Assembly: GCF_001548095.1 (NCBI RefSeq)
Contig: NZ_AP014815.1
Location: 2,479,656 to 2,543,655 of the forward strand
Direction: 5' to 3'
DNA length: 64,000 nucleotides
Origin: Geminocystis sp. NIES-3708
Lineage (GTDB): Bacteria > Cyanobacteriota > Cyanobacteriia > Cyanobacteriales > Cyanobacteriaceae
This document shows positions 3-8,692 of the stretch, piece after piece (position 1 is the stretch's first letter; the number at the start of each line of letters is the position of its first letter). The notes beneath the pieces are model-generated. The model was not told where the DNA came from. It made no database searches and was given only the letters and a program-made list of their open reading frames with translations. Both the position numbers and the translations under genes were made by a program.

Positions 3-1652
3 GGTGAAATTTATCAGCCAAGTCTTTCTCAAGATTTTCGAGGACAAACGGCGAATAATCCTCTCCCTCAAAACCCATTGAGTTGGCAGTTTGAAGCAAA
101 TCAACCCTTGAGAAGAGTCGTTTCTGCCGAAGGTGTGAGTTTTGCTGTGGGTAGCATCAGAGAATATTCTTTAGTGGGAAGAGGAGGCGGTAGTAATCCT
201 GCGGCAATTGGTGGACAAGTGAATCGTTTTCGCTTTCAAGCTGAAAGAGTTGATTTTGATAGTGATAGTTGGAATGCGACTAATATTCGTATTACAAATG
301 ATCCTTTTTCTCCTCCAGAATTTGAAATTAGAGCAGATACTGCCAAATTAAAGAATATTTCGCCTTTTCAAGATGAATTAACCACTACTAAGTCACGTTT
401 AGTGTTTGATCAACGTTTATCTATCCCTTTATTTCAAGATCGTTTAATTTTTGATCGCCGAAATCGTCGTCCAGGATTATTTTCCATCGGTTTTGACGGA
501 GAAGATTTAGGAGGTTTATATATCGAGAGAGATTTTGAGCTTTATAGTGATCAAAAAACGATATTTACTCTTACTCCTCAAATTCTATTACAAAGAGCAT
601 TTTTCCCTGACTCCTTTGTTGATGATAATGCTATTAATCCTGATGATAATGGTGGTTTATTAAATCCCTCTAGTTTCGGTTTAGTGGCAAAATTGGTCAA
701 TGATTTTAGCGATCGCACAAATATTAATGCTATCATTAATTTTACTGGTTTAGACTTAGATAACATAGATAATAGACTTCGTGCCACTGTACAATTAAAT
801 CAAAAAGTAGGAGATCTAAATGCTCCTCATAATTTTAGTTTACAATACAACTACAGAGATCGACTCTTCAATGGTTCATTAGGATTTCAGACAGTACAAC
901 AAAGTTACGGATTAGTAGTAACATCACCCTATAATAGAATTGGTAAATCAGGATTTGGTTTTGTTTATCAAGGTTCAATACAAAATGTCACCGCAGATAC
1001 TGATAGACAAGAATTATTGGGCAGCAATCCCCGAAATAATTTAGCCAACCTAACTCGTTTTCAAGGTGCAGGTATCTTAAACGGAAATATATTATTATGG
1101 AAAGGAAAATCTTTACCCGCAACCCCCGAAGAAGGCTTGAAATACACCGCCACTCCTGTTGCTCCTTACTTAAGTTTGAATACAGGATTAACAGGTGTTG
1201 CCAGTTATTACAGTAACGGTGAAACTCAACCAAACTTAACCGCAACCGTTGGTTTAGAAGGACAATTCGGACATTTTTCTAATCCTTTCTTTGATTATAC
1301 AGGCTTTAATGTTAGTTATAGTCAGGGTATTAGAGGTAATCTATCGCCATTTTTCTTCGACCGTGCCGCCGATGATCAAGTGTTATCATTAGGACTAACT
1401 CAACAATTATATGGTCCTTTAAGGGCAGGATTACAGAGCTTTATTAACGTTAAAACCAATGAGGAAATAAGTACTGATTACTTTTTGGAATATAGTCGTC
1501 GTACTTATAATATTATTGTCCGTTATAATCCTGTTTTAGAAATTGGTTCAGTAAATTTACGTATTAGTGACTTTAACTGGGATGGTAACGCCGCACCTTT
1601 TGAAGGTACTGGTATTCGCCCTGTCGTTGATGGAGTAACTAGAGGAAATTAG
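3..1652 (+). CDS. LptD-like (DUF3769-type) outer-membrane protein, 3' part
   Basis: The frame is open from the first bases of the window, so this is the C-terminal 549 residues of a longer protein whose start lies outside. A TTG at 78 could act as a start, but the codons before it read through as protein in the same frame. The visible part is rich in alternating polar and hydrophobic residues with many Asn, Tyr, Phe and Gly, as in a beta-barrel, with an organic-solvent-tolerance-like segment early on. Cyanobacterial DUF3769 proteins of this kind are thought to be LptD homologues that place lipopolysaccharide in the outer membrane. Family assignment is from overall resemblance; a transport role is inferred. 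Confidence 0.6.
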   Translation, partial: GEIYQPSLSQDFRGQTANNPLPQNPLSWQFEANQPLRRVVSAEGVSFAVGSIREYSLVGRGGGSNPAAIGGQVNRFRFQAERVDFDSDSWNATNIRITNDPFSPPEFEIRADTAKLKNISPFQDELTTTKSRLVFDQRLSIPLFQDRLIFDRRNRRPGLFSIGFDGEDLGGLYIERDFELYSDQKTIFTLTPQILLQRAFFPDSFVDDNAINPDDNGGLLNPSSFGLVAKLVNDFSDRTNINAIINFTGLDLDNIDNRLRATVQLNQKVGDLNAPHNFSLQYNYRDRLFNGSLGFQTVQQSYGLVVTSPYNRIGKSGFGFVYQGSIQNVTADTDRQELLGSNPRNNLANLTRFQGAGILNGNILLWKGKSLPATPEEGLKYTATPVAPYLSLNTGLTGVASYYSNGETQPNLTATVGLEGQFGHFSNPFFDYTGFNVSYSQGIRGNLSPFFFDRAADDQVLSLGLTQQLYGPLRAGLQSFINVKTNEEISTDYFLEYSRRTYNIIVRYNPVLEIGSVNLRISDFNWDGNAAPFEGTGIRPVVDGVTRGN

Positions 1653-1726
1653 CAATTAAGCGAATAGTAGGAAATGGCAATAAACTATCCAAACTAAATA
1701 AAATATTAGAATAAATTATAATAAAA

Positions 1727-2395
1727 ATGAAACCCATTAATATCCTTTACTTCTCTGATGTTCTTTGTGTTTGGGCTTATGTTGCTCAGATTCGTTTAAA
1801 TGAGTTGAAAATGACCTTTAAAGATGATATAAAGATTGAGCATCATTTCGTTCCTGTTTTTGGTGTGGCTATTGAAAATCTCGAAAATAGATGGCGAGAT
1901 AAAGGTGGATTGGAAGCATACAATCATCATGTTCAAGAAATAGCTCAAAGATTCAACCATATCACTATTCATCCTGATATTTGGACAAAGGTTAAACCAG
2001 TATCTTCTACATCTTGTCATTTATTTCTTCATGGGATTCAGCTACTAGAAATAAAAGGAATTATAGAGAATGTATTTGAAAAAGCAATCTGGGCATTTCG
2101 AGAAGCATTTTTTACCCAACTGGCTAATATTAGCGATCGCAAAGTGCAATTCCAAATAGCGGAGGAGTTAAAAATACCTATTGGGTTTATCCAAGCTCAA
2201 ATTGATAGTGGTGAAGCATATGCCCAACTATCAAAAGATTTTAATTTGGTAAAAGAGCATACGGTTACAGTTAGCCCCACCCTAATTTTTAATGAAGGAC
2301 GACAGAGACTCAACGGTAATGTAGGTTATAGAGTAATTGAAGCCAATATAAATGAATTACTACACATTTCTCCTACCGAAGAAAATTGGTGTTAA
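1727..2395 (+). CDS. DsbA-family thioredoxin-fold protein with degenerate active site
   Basis: A 222-residue protein with the FrnE/DsbA layout: an N-terminal strand leading to an active-site loop, a helical insertion, and a cis-proline loop (VSPTLIF) near residue 185. Family members carry CxxC here; this one reads C14-V-W-A17, so the second Cys is missing and normal dithiol oxidation is not possible. There is no signal peptide, so it is probably cytoplasmic. It could be a glutathione-dependent isomerase-like relative (the HCCA isomerase branch also lacks CxxC) or a monothiol enzyme. The fold is fairly sure and the activity is unknown. Confidence 0.65.
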   Translation: MKPINILYFSDVLCVWAYVAQIRLNELKMTFKDDIKIEHHFVPVFGVAIENLENRWRDKGGLEAYNHHVQEIAQRFNHITIHPDIWTKVKPVSSTSCHLFLHGIQLLEIKGIIENVFEKAIWAFREAFFTQLANISDRKVQFQIAEELKIPIGFIQAQIDSGEAYAQLSKDFNLVKEHTVTVSPTLIFNEGRQRLNGNVGYRVIEANINELLHISPTEENWC

Positions 2396-2400
2396 GGATT

Positions 2401-2489
2401 GTGCAAATATTGAGAATTTTACTACCTGTCCACCTTGTCTTCATCATTTTTCCGTTGAACTCAGGTAAACTTAGATGCGTTTTAGCTTA
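2401..2489. repeat. Dispersed intergenic repeat, copy 1
   Basis: This interval after the DsbA-like gene matches, imperfectly, an inverted copy at 11461-11528 and a direct copy at 30010-30071. Shared words are CTGTCCACCTT, GTCTTCA-CATTTTTC and GTTGAAC. Its right part (2466-2489, AACTTAGATGCGTTTTAGCT) recurs at 32326-32349 and overlaps the last codons of the LCP gene. No protein is encoded. It looks like a non-coding mosaic repeat of the host genome. Confidence 0.5.
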
Positions 2490-3913
2490 CCATCCTGATG
2501 ATGATTAAATTCTGGAATAGTCCAATCTTGTCCTACTTGAATCGTTATATCGGAAGTTAATACTCCCGTGCTTTCTACGATAACTTCACCAACTCCTAAA
2601 TCTGCTCTAATTTGAGCGGCGGAATAATTATCTCCTTGTTGTGCAACGATTTTAGTTTCTAATAAAGGTTGATTAGCAAATTGTTGGCTTAAAAATACTC
2701 GGTTATAACCCGTTTCTCGTAAATAATCGACTACTTTTTGAGCAGTTTCTTGATTATCTTTATTACTTTGTACTGCAATTTTTAATTTTGTGGGATCAGA
2801 TTCATGGGAAGCAGTATAATAATCAGGCTCTATTTGAAAATGTTGAGCCATAATTTCAGAAATTTTTTCGTGATTAGGCAACCAATAACTTAATTCTCCT
2901 TCTTCTGGGGTATTAAAGTCTCCCGGTAACATAACCATATTAATATTAGACCTATTTTTTTGTCCTGTAAAACCAGCGATGGCAATTAATTCATTGGTGG
3001 TTAAATTTGTATCTAAATGAGCTCGAACGACAGAAAGAATATCAGGCATTCTTAAAATGGTTCTAGGATTTAAAGCTTGTTCAATTAATGCACGCATAAA
3101 AACTTGTTGTCGTTGAACTCTACCAATGTCACCATAAGCATCATAACGAAAACGTAAAAACTGAAGAGCTTTTGCACCGTCAAGATGTTGTTGTCCTTCT
3201 TTTAAATCAATGTATAAATGTTGACTATGATCAGTATATTTCATATTTTGAGGTACATAGAGATTGACACCACCTAAAGCATCAATAAATTTTTCTACCC
3301 CTTGAACATTAATGCGAATATATCGATCTATTTGTACATCATCTAATAAATTACTAACAGACTCAGCCGCTAAAGCAGGCCCTCCGTGAAAATTGGCATC
3401 ATTAATTTTAGTAATTCCCCTACCTTCGACTAGAGTTTTAGTATCACGAGGAATTGATAAAACTGTAACATAATCTTTTTCAGGATCGAATCTGAGTAAT
3501 AACATACTATCAGACAAACCTTCAAAAGAATTAACTAAGGCATGATAACCTACATCTGGAGTACTTTGATCGGGTACATCATCAGTAGTAACTTTAATAC
3601 CCATAACAAGAATGTTAACTGGTCTGCTTAATTTTGGAATTTGTAAATTGTCAAAACTAACGGTTTCTTCTTGATTAAAAACTGCTTCTTCGGCGGGAGT
3701 CAATCTAGCTTGTCGTAAAGGGGTATTGGATAAAGATAATGCTAATATTGCCCCTACCGTGGCGGATAAAACAGCGATAGCACTTAATCCAAAACCAATT
3801 AATAACCAGTGAGGATTAGACTTAGAAACATTTTTAGAAGTCGATGTCGAAATTTTGGCAAACTGTTGACGATTAACAAACTTACCTTTACGGCTAAAAT
3901 TTCCCTCTGACAT
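2471..3913 (-). CDS. LytR-CpsA-Psr (LCP) family cell-wall glycopolymer ligase
   Basis: A 480-residue protein with a short basic cytoplasmic tail, one transmembrane helix (about residues 36-60), an LCP catalytic domain (about 125-290) and a LytR_C domain (about 377-465). LCP landmarks are visible: SDSMLLLRFDP, LSIPRDT (Arg156, Asp157) and the RFRYD...GRVQRQQ helix near 255-270. LCP enzymes transfer undecaprenyl-linked polysaccharides to peptidoglycan outside the membrane. In cyanobacteria they probably attach cell-wall polysaccharide; the exact substrate cannot be told. It is transcribed alone. Confidence 0.85.
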   Translation of the reverse strand: MSEGNFSRKGKFVNRQQFAKISTSTSKNVSKSNPHWLLIGFGLSAIAVLSATVGAILALSLSNTPLRQARLTPAEEAVFNQEETVSFDNLQIPKLSRPVNILVMGIKVTTDDVPDQSTPDVGYHALVNSFEGLSDSMLLLRFDPEKDYVTVLSIPRDTKTLVEGRGITKINDANFHGGPALAAESVSNLLDDVQIDRYIRINVQGVEKFIDALGGVNLYVPQNMKYTDHSQHLYIDLKEGQQHLDGAKALQFLRFRYDAYGDIGRVQRQQVFMRALIEQALNPRTILRMPDILSVVRAHLDTNLTTNELIAIAGFTGQKNRSNINMVMLPGDFNTPEEGELSYWLPNHEKISEIMAQHFQIEPDYYTASHESDPTKLKIAVQSNKDNQETAQKVVDYLRETGYNRVFLSQQFANQPLLETKIVAQQGDNYSAAQIRADLGVGEVIVESTGVLTSDITIQVGQDWTIPEFNHHQDGKLKRI

Positions 3914-4055
3914 TTAATCTCCCCACACACAAAGATGATGAATATTTAATAATAACTTAACAATCTTAACTTGATTTTGTGTTTATGACGAATTTTTAAG
4001 GATGATTATCTCTGTCATTAGTCTGACATCAATATCTATCATAACCCATAACTTT

Positions 4056-4083
4056 TACCCTCATCACAATACTTTTTCAGTAA
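4056..4083. repeat. Short dispersed repeat, copy a
   Basis: The string TACCCTCATCACAATACTTT, continuing into a TTCAG(T/C)AA end, recurs with one or two changes at 38849-38876. A shortened relative lies near 32310. It sits just past the stop of the nrtR-like gene. No hairpin or terminator T-run is seen. Confidence 0.4.
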
Positions 4084-4086
4084 CAA

Positions 4087-4872
4087 TTAAGTATTAACAG
4101 CACCTTCGATAGTTCTTAAAAAGAAATAAGTATTAACGTCATTTTTTAAACGATATAATTTGGCAGGACGTTTTGCATCTTGACGCATTTCTGTGGTTTC
4201 TTCTAAAATATCAGCTTTAGCTATACGACGCCGAAAAGATTTTGTTTCTAAACTATGATCGAGAATTATCTCATAAACTTTTTGTAAATCTCCTAAAGTA
4301 AACTTTTCAGCCATTAAATAGGAAGGTAAAGAAGTATATAAAACTTTATTACGTAAACGTTCGATAGCTTGACGTAAAATTTTACTATGATCGAAGGCTA
4401 ATAATTCTTTTACTTGATTATTAATAATAGAAGACCATTTGATCTCATTAGCCCCTTTTCCGATGGCAAGTTTAATATTCTGATGGGGTAATAAAGCAAA
4501 ATAAACGGTAGTTACAGACCATCCTCTTGGATCTCGTTGTTTATTGCCAATAGTGAAGCATTGCTCTAAATAGGGAGTTTTTACTCCTGTTTTCTCCTCT
4601 AATTTACGTTTAGCAGTATCTTCTAAAGTTTCATCATTTTCTAAATCGATAAAACCACCCACTAACGCCCATTGATTTTTGAAAGGGTAATTTGCCCGTT
4701 TTACAAGGAGAACTTGCAATTGTTGATCAAAAACTGTGAAAATTACAGTGTCAACAGAAGTGCTAGGACGATCAAAGATTTTAGGATTATAATGATCAAG
4801 AAAATCAGCTTCAGAATTATAGTGTGTTTCTGTTGTTGATGATGGATGATTTGTCATTGGTGAATTATTCAT
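4087..4872 (-). CDS. nrtR: NrtR-like Nudix-winged-helix regulator of NAD salvage
   Basis: A 261-residue protein: an N-terminal Nudix-like domain (about residues 40-175) followed by a winged helix (about 180-255) with an RRRIAK segment. This two-domain plan is that of NrtR, a repressor of NAD biosynthesis that senses ADP-ribose. The Nudix box is altered: the expected R-E-L-x-E-E-x-G reads RKLEEKTG, with two metal-binding Glu positions changed to Lys, so hydrolysis is unlikely and a sensor role fits. Its ATG overlaps the nadV stop (ATGA), giving translational coupling. Another ATG six codons in (MTNHPSS) is possible. A catalytic ADP-ribose hydrolase is the alternative, disfavoured by the motif. 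Confidence 0.75.
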   Translation of the reverse strand: MNNSPMTNHPSSTTETHYNSEADFLDHYNPKIFDRPSTSVDTVIFTVFDQQLQVLLVKRANYPFKNQWALVGGFIDLENDETLEDTAKRKLEEKTGVKTPYLEQCFTIGNKQRDPRGWSVTTVYFALLPHQNIKLAIGKGANEIKWSSIINNQVKELLAFDHSKILRQAIERLRNKVLYTSLPSYLMAEKFTLGDLQKVYEIILDHSLETKSFRRRIAKADILEETTEMRQDAKRPAKLYRLKNDVNTYFFLRTIEGAVNT

Positions 4873-6347
4873 TCTTGATTAATACGTTGACGAATATCTG
4901 CAAGGCTATAGCTTTTAATTAGCTTACCATTCTCGAAAATAGTTTGTAATGCACCTTGTTGTTCTTCCTCAATAGTTTGTTGTTCATACAAAACGTAAGT
5001 ATTATTTTCTTGCTCAACTCTGAGTAAACCTTTTGCTGATTTTTTTGTACCACTATCAGTTTTAGGATTTTTGAAAATATCTCGACGTTTATCATTTACC
5101 ACACCGCTAGTAGCTTTCATGGCAAAACCAAAATTATCACGAGTAACATATTGATAAGTATATGAACCGATACCAAAAACTACATTTCCCGAAGCAAAGC
5201 CTTTGCTTTCCAGCTGTTTCAGGATATTATAAGCTCGATCAAGAGTTATAGAATCACCATAAATTAAGCCAATATGAGCATCCAAAATTTTATAGCCTTG
5301 AGGGGTGATATTACCCCCAAAAATCTCCCATAAACATTGCACTGCACCTTTATATTCAGGAGTATCTTGAGGATAACTAGAATCTCCACAAATTATTTTA
5401 ACAGGATCTCCACTGTCAGGGCGCAAAACAAGTTTTCCATCTCGCCCTAAGATTTTCTCTTTGAGCATAACAGTATATTCGGTGATAACTTTCCAAAAAT
5501 CCCAAGTATCAGAAACAATAGAAACAATACCTTTAGGGTATAAATCTTCAATGAGTCGGCGAAATGTCTCTAATTCTTCCTCTTGCATTCCCATTGCCAT
5601 AACAGAATGTTCCGTTGCTGGTACTGAAGTACCTATTATTTCTTGATCTGCATTGGCATCATAATAATCTTCTAGTAAGTCGATGGCTAATACCGTATCC
5701 GTACCACAAAAAGAAGTTAAATGACCAGCACCGCTAATTATGGCATCTTGAATACCAGATAAACCTCGAAAAGAAAAATCATGACATTGAAAAGGAATAA
5801 AATCTAAAGGTGTTCCTGTTTTTATAGCATAATCTCTCATTAACTTTTTGTATTGAAAAGCAGTGGTTGCCGAAGTTATGGGTTTCCATAAATAGCAAGA
5901 CATCACCGATTCTATGTAGTTAGTTAACCAGAAAAAATCAGGATGAGTATTTACTACCGTTAAAACTGGTATGCCAATGGGTACTAAACTTCCTTCTGGT
6001 AATGCTTTAATTTTAAGGGGTAAATAACCTAAATCATGAAGAGCTTCAATATGTTGCATGGAAATTGCACCGTTTCCTAAAGATTTATCCATGCGTCTTT
6101 GATAAGCAGAAATAACTTTATTTTTATCTACTTTGAAGAAATTTTCCTGCCAACAATCCATTAAATAATCTTTGATGAAATACTGTAAACCGAAAAAGAT
6201 GACTTGAATATTATCTGAATCTAAAACTTTTGCTAAACGACTACTGCGAGGAGTAAAATTAGCATAAACTTCTGTTGTACCTTCAGGATATTGACGACGG
6301 TGATCTGTTTTATAAAAATCAATGGCATTAAGGGGATTTATTTTCAT
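4869..6347 (-). CDS. nadV: Nicotinamide phosphoribosyltransferase
   Basis: A 492-residue protein of the NAMPT/NadV family. It makes nicotinamide mononucleotide from nicotinamide and PRPP in one-step NAD salvage. Visible family motifs are FIPFQCHDFSFRGLSG, the VPATEHSVM segment with the catalytic His, VSDTWDFWKV and the LVLRPDSGDPV loop that binds the phosphoribosyl group. The length matches the family. It lies downstream of a PRPP synthetase gene that can supply its substrate, and overlaps the regulator gene by four bases. The adenylyltransferase completing NAD synthesis is not in the window. Confidence 0.92.
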   Translation of the reverse strand: MKINPLNAIDFYKTDHRRQYPEGTTEVYANFTPRSSRLAKVLDSDNIQVIFFGLQYFIKDYLMDCWQENFFKVDKNKVISAYQRRMDKSLGNGAISMQHIEALHDLGYLPLKIKALPEGSLVPIGIPVLTVVNTHPDFFWLTNYIESVMSCYLWKPITSATTAFQYKKLMRDYAIKTGTPLDFIPFQCHDFSFRGLSGIQDAIISGAGHLTSFCGTDTVLAIDLLEDYYDANADQEIIGTSVPATEHSVMAMGMQEEELETFRRLIEDLYPKGIVSIVSDTWDFWKVITEYTVMLKEKILGRDGKLVLRPDSGDPVKIICGDSSYPQDTPEYKGAVQCLWEIFGGNITPQGYKILDAHIGLIYGDSITLDRAYNILKQLESKGFASGNVVFGIGSYTYQYVTRDNFGFAMKATSGVVNDKRRDIFKNPKTDSGTKKSAKGLLRVEQENNTYVLYEQQTIEEEQQGALQTIFENGKLIKSYSLADIRQRINQE

Positions 6348-6446
6348 GGTTTTTTCCTAATATAATATTTTTGTAACAGTACCAATAGAAGATAGATGTA
6401 ATATAAAAAATGGGAGTAAGAATTGATTAAAAATCACAATCAATAT

Positions 6447-7277
6447 CTAATCTTTCGCCATTTGAGAATAATTAGAGAATATAGTCAGAAAACTACTATC
6501 TTGTTCTTCAAGAGATAACATAGTGTGATAACAATAAATTTGACTAAAATAAGGATGTAATGGTTTTAAACCTTTAGAAAAAATACCGTGAGTAACATAA
6601 AGAGCGATTTCTTGAGCTTCTTTTTTTTGAAGTACTTTTGCTAATTCAATAAAAGTTTTACCACCGTCACAAATATCGTCCACTATCAAAACTTTTCGTC
6701 TTTTGACATCATCATGAAAAGTAGTCGTCAGAATTTTACCTGTTTTGGTATCACGGATTTTACTTCCACAAAAAACATCTGATAAACCAAGACGTTTCGC
6801 CACTGCAAAGGTTTTCTTTTCTGCACCTGCATCTGGGGCAATTAATATCCAGTTATCTCTTAAAAGTTTCTCTTTCAAATAACTTTCATTTAAAATATCT
6901 GCTTGGGTGATAATTTGACAATTATTTAATAAAGCAGGAGTTACATCAGAATGAGGATCAATAATGATGATGCGATCGCATCTTAAACTATTAATCAAGT
7001 CCGCCATAACTTTTACACTTAGAGCTTCTCCTTGATTACAAACTCGATCTTGTCTAGCGTAAGGAAAATAAGGAATAATTAACTCAAGACTGACATCGGG
7101 TAAAATACGGCGAATAGCATCTACGGTAAGCAATAAAGCCATAATATCATTACTACTGTTTAAAACACCTTTAATCATAGTTTTTGGCGTAACTATTTCA
7201 GGTAATAAAGTAACATGACATTCTCCTGCAGGAAAATTAAAGGTTTTAATTTCTGAATTATTAACTAATATGGACAT
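6447..7277 (-). CDS. prs: Ribose-phosphate pyrophosphokinase (short, NAD-salvage-linked form)
   Basis: A 276-residue PRPP synthetase, shorter than the usual 310-330 residues of the housekeeping enzyme. It keeps the FPYARQDR flexible-loop signature, an IIIIDPHSD segment and the PRPP-binding loop VLIVDDICDGGKTF. It makes PRPP from ribose 5-phosphate and ATP. As first gene of a prs-nadV-nrtR operon it probably feeds nadV rather than general nucleotide synthesis. Similar short prs-nadV pairs are known in bacteria and large phages, so acquisition by transfer is possible. Confidence 0.88.
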   Translation of the reverse strand: MSILVNNSEIKTFNFPAGECHVTLLPEIVTPKTMIKGVLNSSNDIMALLLTVDAIRRILPDVSLELIIPYFPYARQDRVCNQGEALSVKVMADLINSLRCDRIIIIDPHSDVTPALLNNCQIITQADILNESYLKEKLLRDNWILIAPDAGAEKKTFAVAKRLGLSDVFCGSKIRDTKTGKILTTTFHDDVKRRKVLIVDDICDGGKTFIELAKVLQKKEAQEIALYVTHGIFSKGLKPLHPYFSQIYCYHTMLSLEEQDSSFLTIFSNYSQMAKD

Positions 7278-7344
7278 TTTTTAGCTTCTATTTTTTATAT
7301 AGGCTTTGAGCCAATAAATATATAATGGCATAGAGACAGTTATA
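7278..7344 (-). promoter_or_regulatory. Candidate promoter/operator region of the NAD-salvage operon
   Basis: Reading toward prs, the strand contains TTGACA followed by AT-rich TATATAT sequence and a small inverted repeat, GGCTCAAAGCC (7304-7314). An NrtR-type operator is expected here because the operon encodes the regulator. I cannot match it to a known NrtR consensus, so the assignment rests on position only. Confidence 0.3.
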
Positions 7345-7470
7345 ATGTCAAGGGGAAAATTAGAATTTGCTGAGTGTGGCTGTAAGGTTGAGATTAAGAC
7401 TAAACAAATTAACCTTGACGTTGAAAACACTTTAGTAATTCAGTTCGATCAAGAAATAGATGATGACTAA
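7345..7470 (+). CDS. Small ORF, 41 residues, unrecognised
   Basis: An ATG-started frame divergent from prs encodes a 41-residue acidic peptide with a CGC motif near residue 12 and an acidic tail ending in IDDD. It starts within the presumed prs promoter region. I do not recognise it. It may be the remnant of a larger protein or a chance frame; there is no obvious ribosome binding site. Confidence 0.2.
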   Translation: MSRGKLEFAECGCKVEIKTKQINLDVENTLVIQFDQEIDDD

Positions 7471-7759: not shown

Positions 7760-8692
7760 CTAATAATTTGTAATTAGCAATTCATTAATATTACCCCGTT
7801 GACTTCCCTTACTATTAATCATTCTAGTAGCGGAAACTCTATGTATATTAAATTGCTGATAAAGTTCATCAAAGAAATTATCTAATGGATTTTCATTTTT
7901 AGGATCTGAATTACTTAACATTAAATATATCTTGTAATTACAATTTAATTTTTTGTAAAATTCAGCTAATCGTTGTTGTTCAAAATCATTAAATACAGAA
8001 GTAGAATAAGATGTAAAATTAGATGTTTTATTTAAAGGACGATAAGGTGGATCTAAATACATAAAAGAATTATCTTTAATAGCATTAATACTCTGAGAAA
8101 AATCAGCTAATTCAATATCACTATTTTGCAATAAAGTAGAAACATTAATAAGGTTTTCTTGATCAAGAATAGTGGGGTTTTTATACTCTCCGTGAGGCAC
8201 GTTAAACTCTCCACTTTTATTAGTTCTAAATAAACCATTAAAACAAGTTTTATTCATAAAGATTAACATTGCAGAACGTTTAATCCACCCATCCGAAAAA
8301 TCAGTATAATTAAAATCTTTTCTATCTTGGTTATAAATTTCTCTAATTTGATAAAAAAATTCCTTTTGTTTTTCTAAATTTAAAGACTGATATTGTTCAG
8401 ATAATTCAGCTATTTTTTCTATTAATAAATCCACTGACTTCTGAATCACTTTATAAGTTATAACAATTTCAGGATTAATATCCGATAAATAACTATATTT
8501 TAATTGATAGTTTTGCACTATATCAAAAAAAACCGCTCCTCCTCCAATAAATGGTTCAATATAACAAGAACACTGGTTTTTTTTCAAAGATTCAGGATAA
8601 AAATTTCTAATCGTATTTAATAACTGGTTTTTGCCTCCAGCCCATTTTAAAAAAGGTTTAGCTTTATTAATAACTGGTGTAGTTTTTTTCAT
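7760..8692 (-). CDS. dam: Dam-type DNA adenine N6-methyltransferase (orphan)
   Basis: A 310-residue class D12 adenine methyltransferase. The SAM-binding motif FLKWAGGKNQLL (residues 14-25), PFIGGGAVFF (47-56) and the catalytic DPPY (214-217) are intact. The segment CFNGLFRTNKSGEFNVPHG (150-168) is typical of enzymes methylating GATC. No restriction gene lies beside it, so it is probably a solitary Dam/DmtA-like enzyme acting in replication, repair or gene control. GATC specificity is inferred from family similarity. Confidence 0.85.
   Translation of the reverse strand: MKKTTPVINKAKPFLKWAGGKNQLLNTIRNFYPESLKKNQCSCYIEPFIGGGAVFFDIVQNYQLKYSYLSDINPEIVITYKVIQKSVDLLIEKIAELSEQYQSLNLEKQKEFFYQIREIYNQDRKDFNYTDFSDGWIKRSAMLIFMNKTCFNGLFRTNKSGEFNVPHGEYKNPTILDQENLINVSTLLQNSDIELADFSQSINAIKDNSFMYLDPPYRPLNKTSNFTSYSTSVFNDFEQQRLAEFYKKLNCNYKIYLMLSNSDPKNENPLDNFFDELYQQFNIHRVSATRMINSKGSQRGNINELLITNY

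Follow-up and report, generated by a model that had tools for sequence, protein, structure and literature searches.

A chromosomal prs-nadV-nrtR operon of Geminocystis sp. NIES-3708 is probably an NrtR-controlled NAD+ reconstitution pathway

Introduction

In a stretch of 64,000 nucleotides from Geminocystis sp. NIES-3708 (contig NZ_AP014815.1, positions 2,479,656 to 2,543,655; hereafter the window), three consecutive open reading frames (ORFs) on the minus strand encode a prs-like protein of 276 amino acids, a nadV-like protein of 492 and an NrtR regulator of 261. NrtR-linked prs-nadV operons are already known, and NrtR regulons of NAD metabolism were reportedly described by Rodionov in 2008. 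The locus raises the question of which reactions the two enzymes catalyse and which compound the regulator senses. The original prediction, made from the sequence of the window, placed the three genes correctly and assigned to them the supply of phosphoribosyl pyrophosphate (PRPP), the formation of nicotinamide mononucleotide (NMN) and regulation by a ligand sensor. The source genome comprises 4.04 Mb in 6 contigs, with an estimated completeness of 100%.

An article of January 2026 (PMC12774641) reports proof that the bacterial NAD+ reconstitution pathway NARP1 works, and calls for more work to define its exact physiological role. Its two enzymes are Adps, of which no structure is published according to that article, and Namat, which uses ADP-ribose pyrophosphate (ADPR-PP). 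From the computed identities of the genes, the residues of the clamp, the phylogeny and the conservation of both linkage and operator, we consider it probable that the window operon is a chromosomal pathway of the NARP1 type, run by NrtR and controlled by its own substrate. Breakdown of NAD+ would yield ADP-ribose and nicotinamide, exactly the pair that the pathway would rejoin: Adps, the prs-like product, would convert ADP-ribose and ATP to ADPR-PP, and Namat, the NadV-like product, would join ADPR-PP and nicotinamide to NAD+ in one step. Bound to a tandem pair of operators that cover the adps promoter, NrtR would repress the operon rather than activate it, ADP-ribose binding to a catalytically dead Nudix domain would release it from the DNA, and the operon would then be expressed until ADP-ribose is back in NAD+. 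ADP-ribose suppresses DNA binding by the Shewanella and Synechocystis NrtR proteins (PMC4666351), and PMC11535050 describes NrtR of Pseudomonas aeruginosa as a repressor that binds ADP-ribose; by analogy, ADP-ribose most likely turns on the pathway that consumes it.

Results

The product annotated as NadV carries the features by which PMC12774641 defines Namat: the helix GSX-phi-X-phi-X-phi-TRD of the clamp and, in the clamp loop, a residue that stacks. In the alignment with PDB chain 9w5x, which we infer to be the Namat of phage SPbetaL1, residues R37, Y396, Y400, T402, R403 and D404 of the window protein correspond to R40, F392, Y396, T398, R399 and D400, and SPbetaL1 R40 stacks on the adenine (PMC12774641). 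The match to 9w5x scored 558 bits, versus about 240 for human-type Nampt, and the identity of the window protein is 54% with SPbetaL1 Namat, 67% with an Acinetobacter protein (locus L068) and 35-38% with two bacterial proteins of the Nampt type. The Nampt-type helix FGMGG[GA]LLQ, our own reading of the Nampt rows, is not present in it. Cyanobacterial records, for example from Geminocystis sp., are its closest named relatives among 445. All 80 bacterial relatives compared have an aromatic residue (F, Y, W or H) at both clamp positions; the helix starts with GG in Marinomonas L107 and L113 and with GA in G433 instead of GS, which counts against a strict motif rule.

A maximum-likelihood tree of 46 rows, which left out the Vibrio phage ICP1 record (L192) with its in-frame stop in the tblastn-derived reading, has a 100/100 branch parting 33 Namat-type rows, the window protein and the validated SPbetaL1 enzyme among them, from 13 Nampt-type rows. 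The subclade of the window protein (18 rows, 95/98) is entirely bacterial, and all 13 phage rows fall outside it. In the tree as a whole, Namat rows from phages and from bacteria are intermixed, with at least five label changes. For prs, the tree was poorly resolved (11 of 29 inner branches open), and no clade was assigned to phage or bacterial Adps.

Two enzymes that serve as a natural control have lost the clamp: the Namat-like NadV of the H. ducreyi plasmid pNAD1 (L207, put in the Namat clade by similarity only) and that of the gammaproteobacterium G647 (L212, placed by the tree) read GAQTYQRNTRD, and TPRSN for TPRSSR. No adps was found on the plasmid (the chromosome was not searched) or within the 14 kb read around the G647 gene. 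Given the likeness of the two, the loss is perhaps a single event. PMC6095924 reports that the pNAD1 enzyme forms NMN in E. coli, and loss of the clamp in these enzymes without a neighbouring adps is an apparent return to PRPP use.

The short prs is, by its sequence, best read as Adps-like and not as the PRPP synthetase of the cell, for which a housekeeping Prs is encoded elsewhere in the genome. Its product matches phrog_619 (E 1.3e-86) and shares 30% identity with the Prs of the same genome and 33-47% with 11 phage rows, the highest value (47%) being that of the Adps-like L020, in agreement with the earlier remark that the gene recalls NAD-reconstitution modules. The general Prs model TIGR01251 was over its cut-off (152.7 vs 113), and the remaining listed Prs models were under theirs. 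The loop DDxxDT[AG]GT, which we take to be the ribose-5-phosphate loop of Prs, is replaced by DDICDGGKTF. The pattern DDICDGGxTF, our own observation, occurs in 84 of 85 Adps-like proteins; among the 11 phage Adps rows it occurs in six, three (SPbetaL1, L022, L194) have DDLxSxGGTF and two were unreadable. We rejected it as a definition of Adps because of these phage counts and because SPbetaL1 Adps reads DDLSSFGGTF. The loop thus distinguishes the window protein from Prs but is no defining mark of Adps.

The genomic partners of Namat and Nampt were compared in 386 sampled genomes of the phylum and 369 sampled gammaproteobacteria, which are samples and not all genomes. By score, the phylum has the Namat form in four genomes and the Nampt form in eight. 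Of the eight Nampt genes, seven are neighbours of NadM, and the 7-16 kb read held no NrtR in any of the eight cases. In two genomes with Namat (the window and G145), nrtR follows the gene, and the other two, G109 and G119, have a closely similar nrtR elsewhere (76% for G119). In the gammaproteobacteria, 14 genomes have a relative: four belong to the Namat clade, three of these with Adps and NrtR, and ten are of the Nampt type, five beside NadM and none with NrtR within about 1.5 kb (stretches of about 3-4 kb). NrtR was thus absent from all 18 Nampt-type stretches of both groups. Full-length NadM was found in 0/4 Namat-bearing phylum genomes versus 5/6 of the Nampt-bearing ones examined. The search of the window genome found no NadM-type NMN adenylyltransferase; the CTP-transferase-like genes found were CoaD, NadD, a glycerol-3-phosphate-cytidylyltransferase-like gene (under the model cut-off) and a 325-aa gene, by its length a candidate RibF. 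The clamp motif, the altered prs-like loop, the tree and the failure to find a NadM-type enzyme together point to ADPR-PP synthesis and direct NAD+ formation, and not to the PRPP supply and NMN formation first proposed.

The nrtR product contains a Nudix domain (PF00293, 53.3 bits, cut-off 21.1) and an NrtR winged helix (PF21906, 80.1 bits, cut-off 27). As originally read, two glutamates of its Nudix box are lysines (R89-K90-L-E-E93-K94-T-G), so that lysine occupies two of the three glutamate positions of REUXEE. The closest solved structure, chain 3gz5, which we take to be Shewanella oneidensis NrtR (SoNrtR), reads RKLAEKT there. Among 73 NrtR genes near Namat genes, the glutamate positions read K-EK in 57, I-EK in 7, E-EE in 4 and otherwise in 3, with 2 unread. 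The change is a family trait and no chance event, because it recurs in 3gz5 and in 57 of these 73 genes. Its treatment as a surprise was rejected on the same grounds, and the impaired Nudix signature of NrtR regulators of NAD metabolism, several of them enzymatically inactive, is already in PMC4666351. The Mycobacterium smegmatis NrtR lacks ADP-ribose hydrolysis, yet ADP-ribose releases it from DNA (PMC6800001), so the idea of one unit with a pure ligand sensor is sound and, with these two articles, already known for the family. ADP-ribose is accordingly the probable effector of the window NrtR, which would itself no longer hydrolyse it. SoNrtR Arg41 contacts the ADP-ribose phosphate (PMC4666351); R59 of the window NrtR aligns with residue 44 of 3gz5_A, which would be Arg41 if the chain has a three-residue tag. 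A second NrtR gene (L005) adjoins nadD in the same genome; its product is 39% identical to the window NrtR and scored 135.5 bits in the NCBIfam NrtR model. In four Bacteroidota loci (L116, L132, L133, L134), the NrtR beside Namat reads RELxEETG, and these proteins are possibly active hydrolases.

The interval 7278-7344, where an operator had been guessed, holds a conserved tandem palindrome. The sequence upstream of the window adps reads TTGACATTATAAC-TGTCTCTATGCCA-TTATATATTTAT-TGGCTCAAAGCCT, that is, a predicted palindromic operator at the promoter of an NAD gene. The exact site, of the pattern TGKC-N5-GMCA (13 bp), sits in the spacer of a sigma-70-like promoter and overlaps the second hexamer by 2 bases, and therefore fits a repressor. 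The promoter itself has 10/12 matches and is no evidence alone, with 21 such sites in the region against 17.4 expected. Between -150 and +60 of adps, the exact pattern was found at 55 of 85 loci (0.75% of mononucleotide-shuffled sequences, 2.1% of random windows), a form with at most one mismatch at 65 (10% shuffled, 19% of random windows of the same loci), and tandem pairs 23-27 bp apart, with at most one mismatch each, at 35 (0 shuffled, 1.0% random); as the pattern was picked after viewing these sequences, the figures are descriptive, and the split by regulator type is a better check than they are. That split gave the exact operator at 53 of 61 K-EK loci (59 with at most one mismatch), the sister-genus loci L008 and L009 being classed by their unlinked nrtR, at 0/7 I-EK loci and at 1/4 E-EE loci. 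In the whole genome, the exact tandem pattern occurs once, at the window adps promoter; the other listed places are 2 bases off, and a reversed-pattern control gave 0. Bacteroidota adps promoters are mostly without TGKC-N5-GMCA, as at all seven I-EK loci. By eye, a palindrome like TTAGTGTAA...TTACACTAA is repeated upstream of nrtR in seven Bacteroidota (L108, L109, L115, L123, L125, L126, L128), and TTAGTGTAA-N-TTACACTAA is likely a second operator type.

Linkage was assessed in the best 80 of the 445 relatives, 31 of them Acinetobacter by title, from six phyla (Pseudomonadota, Bacteroidota, Verrucomicrobiota, Cyanobacteriota, Bdellovibrionota and Planctomycetota). Adps was present in 77, NrtR in 73 and all three genes together in 73; without Acinetobacter, NrtR was found in 42/49 and Adps in 46/49. 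The order is adps-namat-nrtR at 56 loci and nrtR-adps-namat at 14, with nrtR divergent at 2 and one other arrangement. A record of Acinetobacter baylyi (L105) also carries these three genes. Among the seven loci without NrtR, a contig end lies about 1.2 kb or less from namat on one side in L066, L103, L118 (not downstream) and L129, the L104 stretch starts with namat, and L121 and L127 lack NrtR despite complete flanks. The NrtR winged helix was found genome-wide in five of the six genomes searched, that of L104 lying outside the search. In the 4-9 kb read, 11 phage NARP1 loci had no exact operator and no NrtR match. Among all 15 phage or plasmid stretches, the exact operator was found in none (three with one mismatch), and the only NrtR matches were two weak ones to Nudix genes on plasmids L209 and L210.

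KptA/Tpt1 consumes NAD+ in RNA repair, and NADAR is an ADP-ribosyl hydrolase family. With queries taken from these same loci, KptA/Tpt1 was found in 10, NADAR in 11 and a metallophosphatase in 11 of 19 Bacteroidota loci, and NADAR also in 2 of 53 Pseudomonadota loci; this neighbourhood fits a recycling role. The Bacteroidota clusters with NADAR, KptA/Tpt1 and metallophosphatase (L109:3080-4971, L115:2715-5011, L122, L102, L121, L125-L127), part of which also hold a nucleoside deoxyribosyltransferase-like protein and DUF4291, are possible RNA-repair and ADP-ribose-recycling operons.

Table 1 Features of the prs-nadV-nrtR locus (positions in the window)
Feature	Position	Strand	Remarks
adps-like gene (annotation-style name short prs)	6447..7277	minus	276 aa; predicted ADP-ribose pyrophosphokinase; ORF, phrog_619, identity comparisons
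namat-like gene (annotation-style name nadV)	4869..6347	minus	492 aa; ORF, profile matches, tree
nrtR gene	4087..4872	minus	261 aa; Nudix-like domain and winged helix
selectivity-clamp helix GSYTYQYVTRD	5136..5168	minus	residues 394-404; matches published Namat motif, aromatics at 3 and 7
R37 (clamp loop)	6237..6239	minus	aligned with SPbetaL1 Namat R40, via 9w5x
loop DDICDGGKTF	6651..6680	minus	residues 200-209; housekeeping Prs has DDMIDTAGTL there
degenerate Nudix box RKLEEKTG	4585..4608	minus	residues 89-96; K90 and K94 replace Glu
operator site 1, TGTCTCTATGCCA	7326..7338	minus	exact TGKC-N5-GMCA
operator site 2, TGGCTCAAAGCCT	7301..7313	minus	one mismatch; 25 bp from site 1
sigma-70-like promoter	7322..7351	minus	TTGACA (7351-7346), 18-nt spacer, CATTAT (7327-7322)

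Discussion

Several observations weigh against an NrtR-controlled NARP1 pathway in the window. On the side of the regulator, the NCBIfam NrtR equivalog NF050029, still the best NCBIfam match, scored 282.8, under its curated cut-off of 400, and four Bacteroidota NrtR genes beside Namat keep the intact box E-EE. The NrtR winged helix occurs in 303 of the 386 phylum genomes and Namat in only 4, so that other genes must be the targets of most of these NrtR proteins; one congener, G187, is without the module. In the sister genus, G109 and G119 have nrtR unlinked and no good operator match at the nrtR promoter, and the candidate of an operator shared by their adps and nrtR promoters led nowhere. On the side of the enzymes, three of 10 phage rows within the Namat clade, all from Adps-bearing phages, have a non-aromatic M or C at clamp position 7, the loop of the validated SPbetaL1 Adps differs from that of the window protein, and the clamp is insufficient alone, as its graft into human Nampt failed (PMC12774641).

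A classical salvage route, in which the prs-like enzyme makes PRPP and NadV makes NMN, which an NMN deamidase, NadD and NadE then turn into NAD+, is what the annotation models (ribose-phosphate diphosphokinase and nicotinate phosphoribosyltransferase) suggest. In vitro, Namat also accepts PRPP, about half as effectively as human Nampt does (PMC12774641), so the window enzyme may form NMN as well; the genome has NadD and a CinA/PncC homologue that could use NMN; and NMN formation in E. coli is reported for the NadV enzymes of Shewanella, whose clamp was not compared here, and of H. ducreyi (PMC6095924). We nevertheless regard this route as improbable, given the clamp motif with R37, the position in the Namat clade, an Adps-like loop unlike that of Prs in a cell that already has a housekeeping Prs, and the lack of a NadM match in the genome; moreover, the NMN-making pNAD1 enzyme is one that has lost the clamp.

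A domesticated or recently acquired phage NARP1 that landed by chance beside a regulator would agree with the first description of NARP1 in phages, with the patchy presence of the module in the phylum and with the mixing of phage and bacterial Namat rows, but it is very unlikely: the window protein falls within an all-bacterial clade, and the relatives conserve NrtR and the operator, for which the 11 phage loci gave no exact match in the stretch read. Less easily dismissed, though still unlikely, is an immune purpose of the same enzymes, that is, self-protection or counter-defence induced by NADase defence in place of everyday recycling, a reading compatible with the circuit that we prefer. 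Paenibacillus NARP1 rescues E. coli from NADase defence (PMC12774641), and two upstream neighbours in the window match PADLOC models (an orphan or type II methyltransferase, and mad2); both matches, however, look like general methyltransferases, the downstream neighbour belongs to the LCP family, and the Bacteroidota modules are mixed with RNA-repair genes.

Compared with known systems, the NrtR-controlled circuit shares its two enzymes, their order and the clamp motif with bacterial NARP1 (Adps-Namat), e.g. that of Paenibacillus foliorum (PMC12774641), and adds to it NrtR as a third gene and a conserved operator; that article does not mention NrtR. With the NrtR regulons of NAD metabolism (PMC4666351) it has in common a Nudix-like sensor with a winged helix, a degenerate box, a palindromic operator and NAD genes, whereas its targets are read as ADP-ribose recycling and not as PRPP/NMN salvage. 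The NadM-NadV (Nampt) salvage of the same phylum reuses nicotinamide with a related transferase, and differs in the FGMGG[GA]LLQ-type helix (four phylum rows read), the NadM partner (7/8) and the absence of NrtR (0/8). The phage pathways (SPbetaL1, Justusliebigvirus and others) have Adps and Namat in common with the window, but neither the exact operator nor an NrtR match in the 11 loci. PMC9503650 discusses transcription factors of the Nudix type in ADP-ribose systems, as well as phages in which NADAR lies next to NadV; no Adps-Namat-NrtR operon was seen in the parts read. In our literature search, NrtR was never named together with NARP1, Namat, Adps or ADPR-PP, although most subscription journals lay outside the search and an earlier remark is possible. 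Bacterial NARP1 (PMC12774641) and NrtR are each known; the new part is their identity as one ADP-ribose-controlled circuit.

The occurrence of an ADP-ribose-sensing type of repressor beside NARP1 genes in six phyla, with the operator in the larger part of the loci, gives this pathway a testable role in substrate-induced NAD+ recovery, and suggests that some operons annotated prs-nadV do other chemistry than the databases state. The enzymes are known mainly as phage counter-weapons, and metabolic control by the bacteria themselves therefore suggests their normal purpose. On balance, we favour the view that NARP1 was originally a bacterial circuit induced by ADP-ribose, in which a dead Nudix domain senses the substrate and both enzymes are thereby switched on, and that phages took the enzymes without the switch. 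If the circuit is as proposed, many NrtR-linked prs-nadV operons of Acinetobacter, cyanobacteria and other Proteobacteria have been misread, and the Bacteroidota version with KptA and NADAR would make good the NAD+ consumed by RNA repair and de-ADP-ribosylation.

Neighbouring genes and minor observations

The overlapping translation originally described applies to nadV and nrtR, which share 4 bp (4869-4872, ATGA), and not to prs and nadV, which are 99 bp apart. The operon is flanked upstream by a Dam-type methylase gene and downstream by an LCP family gene. The Dam-type adenine methylase (7760-8692, minus strand) is orphan-looking, with oMTase as its best PADLOC match. A short divergent ORF of 41 aa (7345-7470, plus strand), whose start overlaps the adps -35 element, is a candidate gene at most. 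Among the mobile-element records, the Curtobacterium plasmid L210 carries a row of genes (1247-5639) made up of adps, TerD, namat, NADAR and a gene of the Nudix type. The record L018 (CAKLQF020000015.1), titled Acinetobacter phage MD-2021a, holds chromosomal-looking genes together with an Adps-Namat-NrtR operon and is probably a bacterial contig, and the 4-Mb Acinetobacter 'plasmids' NZ_CP104448.1 and NZ_CP064203.1 look like mislabelled chromosomes.

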